Of a stretch of DNA of 64,000 nt, positions 9,946 through 12,473 are shown in pieces; positions within the stretch are counted from its first letter, which is position 1, and each line of letters begins with the position of its first letter. The notes beneath the pieces were generated by a model. It had not been told where the DNA came from. It did not search any database and saw nothing but the letters and a program-made list of their open reading frames with translations. The stretch is from positions 1 to 64,000 of the forward strand of contig CAMCLD010000001.1 of assembly GCA_945875635.1 (NCBI GenBank), written 5' to 3'. The translations under genes and the position numbers were made by a program. The DNA is from an uncultured Prevotella sp. GTDB taxonomy: Bacteria; Bacteroidota; Bacteroidia; Bacteroidales; Bacteroidaceae.

Positions 9946-10064
9946 AAGTTTTTTAATTTTTCAACAAAGGCAAATTTACACATTATTTTTTAAACAATGA
10001 CTATAATTAGTATTTTTATAGAAGCTTTTATTGTCATCCTAACAATTATTTTTGATAATAATTG

Positions 10065-10072
10065 TATTTTTG
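10065..10072 (+). promoter_or_regulatory. Bacteroidetes-type -7 element (TATTTTTG)
   Basis: TAnnTTTG match ~54 nt upstream of ATG 10126; supports 10126 as the true start of the acyltransferase. Confidence 0.45.
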
Positions 10073-10125
10073 CAAAATATAAAAACAAAGATCATTCAAG
10101 TTTAGTAAGTAAGGGAACGTATAAT

Positions 10126-11136
10126 ATGCAAAGGATAGAATGGATTGATTTTTGCCGTGGATTATTCATGATGATGATTCTATGGTTTCACACAGAATAT
10201 TACTATATAGGACATTTAGTTATTCCATATTCATTATATGTTGAGAATTCTCTTATAGGTTTCTTCTTTATTTCAGGATATCTATTCTTTCCATATAGAA
10301 ATAATATTTACATAAGAAAGGGTATTTACAATACTTTAAGAAAACTCCTCATACCATATTTATGTATAGTTCCTATAATATATTTTATAAAGACATCACT
10401 TCAGCATGACTTCTCCTTTAGCAATATGTTTATAAGTGTTCTTACAGGAAAGGCATCATGGTTTGTTTCCTCACTTATATTATGTCATTTATATATAGTT
10501 ATGGTATGCAGCATCAGAAAGTTATGGGTTACTATAACAGCATGTTCCCTACCCTTCCTCATTATAATGAATCTCGTCAACAGCAACGCTGAAATTGATG
10601 TAACATCAATTGCCAATGTGTCAGCCATAACAATTTTCTTCATGTTATGTGGTCATATATATCGCAGATTTGAGAAACATATCAACAACATTCCAAAAAT
10701 AACTTATGTAGTATTAGGTGCTGTGTTGTTTGTATTGAAATACATAGAAATAGGCAATGATATAAAAATGACATTATACACAATAAACATAGACAACTAC
10801 CTTCTTTTAATTCTTGATACCCTTATATGGTGTTTCATCATTATAGGTTGTTGTAAAATGGCACACGGAATACTTGGCACACTGCCATGCAGATATATTA
10901 AATGGATAGGAAAACACTCTTTAGTATTCTATTTTATATGCGGAGGTGTACCGAGAATATCATCATTCATCATGCATGGCATCACAGATACACATTACTA
11001 CTTTATGCCATTCACATTCATGGTGGTAATGCTTTTGTCAACTTCCACGACATGGATACTCTATCATTGCAAACCATTCAGAAAATACATACTTGGTATT
11101 GTGGATAAATATGTTCAAAACAATGTTGATAAATAA
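10126..11136 (+). CDS. Acyltransferase family 3 (membrane-bound O-acyltransferase-like)
   Basis: MQRIEWIDFCRGLFMMMILWFHTEY...FFFISGYLFF; multiple TM. Listed ORF starts at 9997, but the domain begins at ATG 10126. Confidence 0.85.
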   Translation: MQRIEWIDFCRGLFMMMILWFHTEYYYIGHLVIPYSLYVENSLIGFFFISGYLFFPYRNNIYIRKGIYNTLRKLLIPYLCIVPIIYFIKTSLQHDFSFSNMFISVLTGKASWFVSSLILCHLYIVMVCSIRKLWVTITACSLPFLIIMNLVNSNAEIDVTSIANVSAITIFFMLCGHIYRRFEKHINNIPKITYVVLGAVLFVLKYIEIGNDIKMTLYTINIDNYLLLILDTLIWCFIIIGCCKMAHGILGTLPCRYIKWIGKHSLVFYFICGGVPRISSFIMHGITDTHYYFMPFTFMVVMLLSTSTTWILYHCKPFRKYILGIVDKYVQNNVDK

Positions 11137-11460
11137 ATAACAATATACTACATTATAAACACCTATTACATACAACCACTAAAAGTGTGAATAAAACACC
11201 TTTTATTAATGAGATAAAAATGATTTTTCAACTATTTTATAACTGAAAAAGATATAAACTTATTAACTTTGCAATTAAAAATAGGAATTGTGGATAAATA
11301 GCTTTAAGTTCTGACATTCAGACATAAACTATTAATGATTGTTGTTGATAACTAAACATAATATATTTATAAATTCTCATGCAAGAAAATATAAAGAAAG
11401 TTTTGAACTTATCAACAGGATATCATACTACCCATTTTCTTTTTTTCTTTAAAAAATAAA
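11100..11460. other. oriC: Candidate chromosomal replication origin (oriC): cluster of DnaA-box-like 9-mers in AT-rich DNA
   Basis: TGTGGATAA 11100-11108, TGTTGATAA 11124-11132, TGTGAATAA 11186-11194, TGTGGATAA 11289-11297, TGTTGATAA 11343-11351, TTATCAACA 11409-11417; very AT-rich intergenic DNA; same-orientation genes change from C>G (left) to G>C (right) in the lines I counted. Confidence 0.65.
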
Positions 11461-11480
11461 AAACAATAAAATATAAATGT

Positions 11481-12473
11481 ATGATGGAAAAACAAGAATG
11501 GAAGGATAAAGGATACGTTGATGAGAAGATACCTGAATCTGTTGATTTGAAAAGAGAAATAAGAAAAATGTGTGAGGAAAAGGATGCCATAATCCTTGCC
11601 CATTACTATACAAGAGGAGAGATACAGGATATAGCAGACTTTGTAGGTGACTCTTTGGCTCTTGCACGCATGGCAGCCAAGTCAGAAGCAAAAATAATGG
11701 TCATGTGCGGTGTGCACTTCATGGCTGAGACTTGCAAGATACTATCACCAGAGAAAAAAGTACTTTGTCCTGATGTAAACGCAGGATGTTCGCTTGCTGA
11801 TTCATGTAAAGCTGATGACTTAAAGAAATTCAAGGAAGAACACCCTGGATATGAAGTTGTGAGTTATGTGAACACTACAGCTGCCGTAAAGGCTCTTACT
11901 GATGTTGTAGTGACAAGTGGAAACGCTAAGAAGGTGATAGATTCCTTTCCACAGGATGCAAAATTAATATTCGGACCTGATTATAACCTTGGAAACTATA
12001 TAAACAGCGTGACAGGAAGGAATATGCTTTTGTGGAATGGTGGATGCCATGTGCATGAGAAGTTTTCTGTTGACGAGATTGTACGTTTAAAGAAAGAGTA
12101 CCCAGATGCAGTAGTAATGGCACATTTGGAATGTAAGGCACCTGTTCTTGCATTGGCGGATGTTAAAGGAAGCACAGCCACAATGCTTAAATACGCTCAG
12201 GAACACAGCAATAAAGAATATATTGTGGCTACTGAGTCAGGAATATTACATGAAATGCAACGTTCGTGTCCTGACAAGACATTCATACCTGTTCCTCCTG
12301 AGGTTACAGAGGGAGGTGTAGGATGTTCATGCAATGAATGTGAATACATGAAACTAAATACTTTGGAAAAGATATACAATACTTTGAAGTATGAATATCC
12401 TACAGTAGAAATAGATCCAGACATAAGAGAACAGGCTGTGAAGCCAATTGAGAGAATGCTCAGATTGTCATGA
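11481..12473 (+). CDS. nadA: Quinolinate synthase
   Basis: AIILAHYYTRGEIQDIADFVGDSLALAR, VMCGVHFMAETCKILSPEK, WNGGCHVHEKF, HLECKAPV, GGVGCSCNECEYMKLNTLEKIY. Confidence 0.96.
   Translation: MMEKQEWKDKGYVDEKIPESVDLKREIRKMCEEKDAIILAHYYTRGEIQDIADFVGDSLALARMAAKSEAKIMVMCGVHFMAETCKILSPEKKVLCPDVNAGCSLADSCKADDLKKFKEEHPGYEVVSYVNTTAAVKALTDVVVTSGNAKKVIDSFPQDAKLIFGPDYNLGNYINSVTGRNMLLWNGGCHVHEKFSVDEIVRLKKEYPDAVVMAHLECKAPVLALADVKGSTATMLKYAQEHSNKEYIVATESGILHEMQRSCPDKTFIPVPPEVTEGGVGCSCNECEYMKLNTLEKIYNTLKYEYPTVEIDPDIREQAVKPIERMLRLS

Follow-up and report, generated by a model that had tools for sequence, protein, structure and literature searches.

A candidate chromosomal replication origin upstream of nadA, apart from dnaA, in a Prevotella-type bacterium

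A dense group of DnaA boxes in front of the vitamin-synthesis gene nadA, which encodes quinolinate synthase in a Prevotella-type gut bacterium, raises the question whether the chromosomal replication origin (oriC) can be located at a site that is not marked by dnaA. The window analyzed here corresponds to positions 1 to 64,000 of contig C1 (141,731 bp) in a 2.54-Mb draft genome of 100 contigs. The segment 11100-11480 of the window is very likely the oriC of this bacterium, with dnaA encoded elsewhere on the chromosome, as judged from sequence comparison. The original prediction proposed the same role for this region; the support that it has gained since comes from evidence beyond its own, namely the skew of related chromosomes, conserved boxes and a tandem-box/DnaA-trio unwinding module that was absent from it and became apparent in the alignment.

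A pattern scan of the window identifies six DnaA-box-like 9-mers within 318 bp, all of which match TTATYMACA, five on the minus strand and one on the plus strand, in agreement with the original prediction in number, shared orientation and all coordinates (Table 1). The two leftmost boxes are not intergenic but are embedded in the 3' end of the acyltransferase open reading frame. Together with a degenerate repeat between them, these boxes form an array of 12-bp-phased TGTGGATAA repeats that is retained in the 80-row alignment as well as in individual loci. The surrounding DNA is indeed very AT-rich, as had been noted, with 74-82% AT over positions 11050-11549 compared to 52-65% outside. In the complete draft, TTATYMACA occurs 146 times in 2.54 Mb, hence an expectation of 0.018 per 318 bp; the probability of finding at least six boxes in such a segment is about 5e-14, or about 1e-9 genome-wide, so that the cluster is well above chance. 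Farther to the left, about 4 kb from the putative origin, the window encodes a PorZ-like type IX secretion protein (PF21544; 5511-7628).

Table 1. Features of the candidate origin region and its flanking genes (window coordinates)
Feature	Position	Strand	Basis and remarks
Acyltransferase ORF	9997-11136		left neighbor of the box region
Left DnaA-box array, TTATCCACA and TTATCAACA	11100-11132	-	degenerate repeat between both boxes, 12-bp phase
DnaA box TTATCCACA	11100-11108	-	exact match; part of left array
DnaA box TTATCAACA	11124-11132	-	exact match; part of left array
DnaA box TTATTCACA	11186-11194	-	exact match; column block partly conserved in alignment
Near-invariant block ending AAAGATATAAACTTATTAANTTTGCA	11246-11273	+	most columns over 90% identical in 80-row alignment
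DnaA box TTATCCACA	11289-11297	-	exact match; about -192 from nadA ATG; most conserved box
DnaA box TTATCAACA	11343-11351	-	exact match; about -138 from nadA ATG
Tandem DnaA boxes, degenerate TTTTGAAC then TTATCAACA	11400-11417	+	scan and alignment; adjoins trio
DnaA box TTATCAACA	11409-11417	+	exact match; second of tandem pair
4-nt spacer GGAT, then trio-like triplets ATC ATA CTA (CCC) ATT TTC	11418-11439	+	complement 3'-TAG TAT GAT-5'
Predicted AT-rich DNA unwinding element reaching nadA start	11431-11480	.	sequence and AT content
nadA, quinolinate synthase	11481-12473	+	PF02445, E 6.6e-120; conserved right-hand neighbor; anchors 80 relative loci

The conservation of these boxes in front of nadA in related bacteria, which had been suggested as a check, is detectable. 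Using NadA, 80 Prevotellaceae loci were gathered, and both the position and the architecture of the region are retained among them. In the 79 loci in which box density was counted, the 460 bp preceding nadA contain 6.4 boxes per kb, compared to 0.115 per kb in the remainder of these loci, a 56-fold enrichment. At least two exact boxes precede nadA in 72 of these loci; the remaining seven contain fewer than two, which counts against the origin reading. Box positions, measured from the nadA start, are kept as well: most loci have a box near -192, others lie near -138 and -72 (the latter on the plus strand), and the 12-bp-phased array extends from about -355 to -381; five of the six boxes in the window occupy conserved positions. 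The number of boxes varies, with 17 TTATYMACA boxes in the 7-kb locus of Leyella stercorea (L050), ten of these within 1 kb before nadA, and additional boxes outside the conserved core in two other loci (L026 and L010).

The part of the region closest to nadA appears to be a distinct unwinding module. A DnaA-trio consists of NAN triplets on the complementary strand and is separated from the box by a short GC-rich gap (about 4 bp). In a basal unwinding system (BUS), one or more DnaA boxes are followed, after no more than 16 bp, by at least three such triplets (PMC8287927). This arrangement is found in the window, where the box at 11409 is followed by the 4-nt spacer and by three consecutive triplets, the minimum by this definition, before a CCC interruption; the shortness of this run counts against the origin reading. 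Among 74 non-identical relatives, 78, 81, 74, 65 and 74% of the sequences have a T at offsets 5, 8, 11, 14 and 17 from the box, respectively, compared to just 1-11% at offsets 4, 6, 7, 9 and 10; runs of at least three triplets are common only in the frame that starts from offset 4, with its continuation at 7. By the evidence of this alignment, the T periodicity behind the tandem boxes is the signature of a DnaA-trio. The same scan produced other weak box/trio matches elsewhere in the window, so that the module is telling only in combination with its conservation and position. Between the two AT-rich runs that had been put forward as an unwinding element, the second fits this arrangement; the element is best placed at 11418-11480, with the AT-rich run itself lying behind the triplets and reaching the nadA start. 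DNA folding of the unwinding region revealed no significant structure.

The GC skew of the window itself does not carry the case. A local change in sign at this site had been cited in favor of an origin, but the skew in 2-kb steps is noisy, with mixed signs on both sides, and the cumulative minimum of contig C1 is displaced from nadA by 11.5 kb to the right, which counts against the origin reading. Given that contig C1 includes only 11 kb to the left of the site, related genomes were used instead. In the complete chromosome of Prevotella communis (3,551,722 bp), sampled in 20-kb stretches, positive skew prevails between 0 and about 1.7 Mb and negative skew between about 1.8 and 3.55 Mb. The terminus is opposite the nadA locus, and the cumulative skew reaches a local minimum at a distance of 4.2 kb from nadA. 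In the 3.27-Mb scaffold of Segatella buccae, negative skew continues as far as 838 kb, where nadA is located; positive values then predominate between 840 kb and 2.0 Mb and negative values beyond, and the local cumulative minimum is only 0.6 kb from nadA. The agreement is rougher in a single-contig congener (G167), in which the skew turns between 2,580 and 2,646 kb and nadA is found at 2,665 kb, about 20-85 kb apart. Overall, the skew to the right of nadA exceeds that to the left in eight of nine genomes; the lack of a left-right step at nadA in one genome (G003) and the negative skew on both sides in another (G007) count against the origin reading.

The dnaA gene does not adjoin the candidate origin in the draft itself or in these two relatives. 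As anticipated, the two are uncoupled: dnaA maps to contig C9 in the draft (C9:44181) and lies far from nadA both in P. communis (dnaA at 757 kb) and in S. buccae (dnaA at 34 kb, nadA at 838 kb). In another relative, the genome of Segatella albensis (G004, locus L018) encodes two full-length DnaA-family proteins (C17:26053 and C11:26604, frames of 470 and 473 aa).

By analogy with established oriC and BUS systems, DnaA would bind the six or more boxes, and from the tandem plus-strand boxes a filament of DnaA-ATP would be loaded onto one of the two strands of the DnaA-trio triplets (11422-11439). Growth of this filament is expected to open the AT-rich DNA as far as the nadA start codon (11422-11480), to be followed by helicase loading and initiation, with forks departing both ways.

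The alternative that fares best, albeit an unlikely one, is that the boxes belong to a nadA promoter under the control of DnaA acting as a transcription factor, without any origin. Among the boxes there is a near-invariant block (Table 1) that, at up to 2 mismatches, occurs exactly once in each of 44 among 72 genomes of the same genus and in none of the family's other genera that were sampled. Within this block, TAACTTTG (11264-11271) fits TAnnTTTG, the -7 promoter consensus of Bacteroidetes, and points at nadA; thus, the block probably contains the nadA promoter, embedded in the putative origin. An Rfam search of the nadA leader detected no RNA element. The block exceeds the length needed by a promoter alone and accordingly may also bind another factor. 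However, a promoter requires neither trio triplets nor a box array that extends into the upstream gene, and it would not account for the skew minimum at the same site in relatives. The two roles can coexist at one locus.

Still less probable is a site of the datA/DARS type that titrates or reactivates DnaA separately from oriC. Numerous boxes with conserved spacing would be compatible with such a site, but the location of the skew minimum in relatives and the succession of boxes, trio and AT-rich run speak against it; furthermore, no denser cluster that would act as oriC is seen among the matches listed. Equally dense clusters across the genome had been named as an observation that would speak against an origin. 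The complete genome lists of TTATCCACA (51 occurrences) and TTATCAACA (58) include no comparable cluster, so this objection does not hold, and the cluster upstream of nadA is the densest TTATYMACA cluster in the genome, without a comparable rival, among the matches listed. The next densest group among these matches consists of three boxes in about 710 bp on contig C19 of the draft (C19:884-1596), where DnaA might be titrated or exert regulation. Finally, a chance accumulation of boxes in intergenic DNA, for which the 74-82% AT content might seem favorable, has a negligible probability, considering that six boxes never occurred in 20,000 simulated first-order Markov sequences of matched AT content (the maximum being three) and that the retention of box positions across Prevotellaceae already refutes it.

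With the region upstream of nadA as the preferred candidate for oriC, a precise, testable origin becomes available for a Prevotella-type genome, along with a lineage-wide rule, to search before nadA and not at dnaA. Such a rule would help to orient draft genomes, to estimate growth rates from read coverage and to direct work on DnaA in Bacteroidetes. DNA comparison of the locus with plasmid records returned only nadA-coding fragments. Whether the link extends farther is a matter for tentative suggestion: that the association of oriC with nadA, including a tandem-box/trio element some 70-90 bp upstream of the nadA start codon, goes back to an ancestor of much of the class Bacteroidia seems possible but somewhat doubtful. 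Hints in this direction are ten boxes before nadA in one genome (G117), elements resembling a box and trio, at -80 to -90, in three genera of one family (f38; G046, G114 and G215) and a skew that turns near nadA in another genome (G050); against it, many other members of Bacteroidia have no boxes before nadA. If the link is ancestral, nadA would be the marker of oriC in this phylum, a role that dnaA has elsewhere. The trio element of the f38 type was also considered as a class-wide mark and was rejected, its pattern matching close to nadA in no genomes other than the three that define it.

Origins that are separate from dnaA are familiar. The oriC of Escherichia coli consists of DnaA boxes and an AT-rich unwinding element, is located apart from dnaA and is flanked by gidA and mioC; the candidate origin shares the boxes, the AT-rich element and the separation but has the acyltransferase gene and nadA as neighbors. 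The closest parallel is chromosome I of Prevotella intermedia OMA14, where Ori-Finder placed oriC at a cluster of DnaA boxes, at the GC-skew transition and far from dnaA, an arrangement that the authors called common in Bacteroidetes (PMC4755523). The two origins are alike in the multiple boxes, the skew transition and the distant dnaA; the portion of that report consulted describes no trio module and names no flanking genes, so that the likeness concerns the kind of origin and not the locus. The kind of origin is accordingly already known, and what this analysis adds is nadA as a landmark, the detailed architecture and the trio module. Among other origin predictions in Bacteroidetes, the text on Mariniflexile names mnmG as the neighbor (PMC11278836) and that on Elizabethkingia gives no neighbor (PMC8994065); a search of the literature, as distinct from DoriC entries, found no published link between oriC and nadA. 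The unwinding module resembles those of Bacillus subtilis and other bacterial BUS in the tandem boxes, the 4-nt spacer, the NAN triplets on one strand and the adjacent AT-rich DNA (PMC8287927). In contrast to the B. subtilis BUS, the candidate origin is not located beside dnaA, its first tandem box is degenerate and its trio run is short. With this module, Prevotella would join the lineages in which a DnaA-trio is visible.
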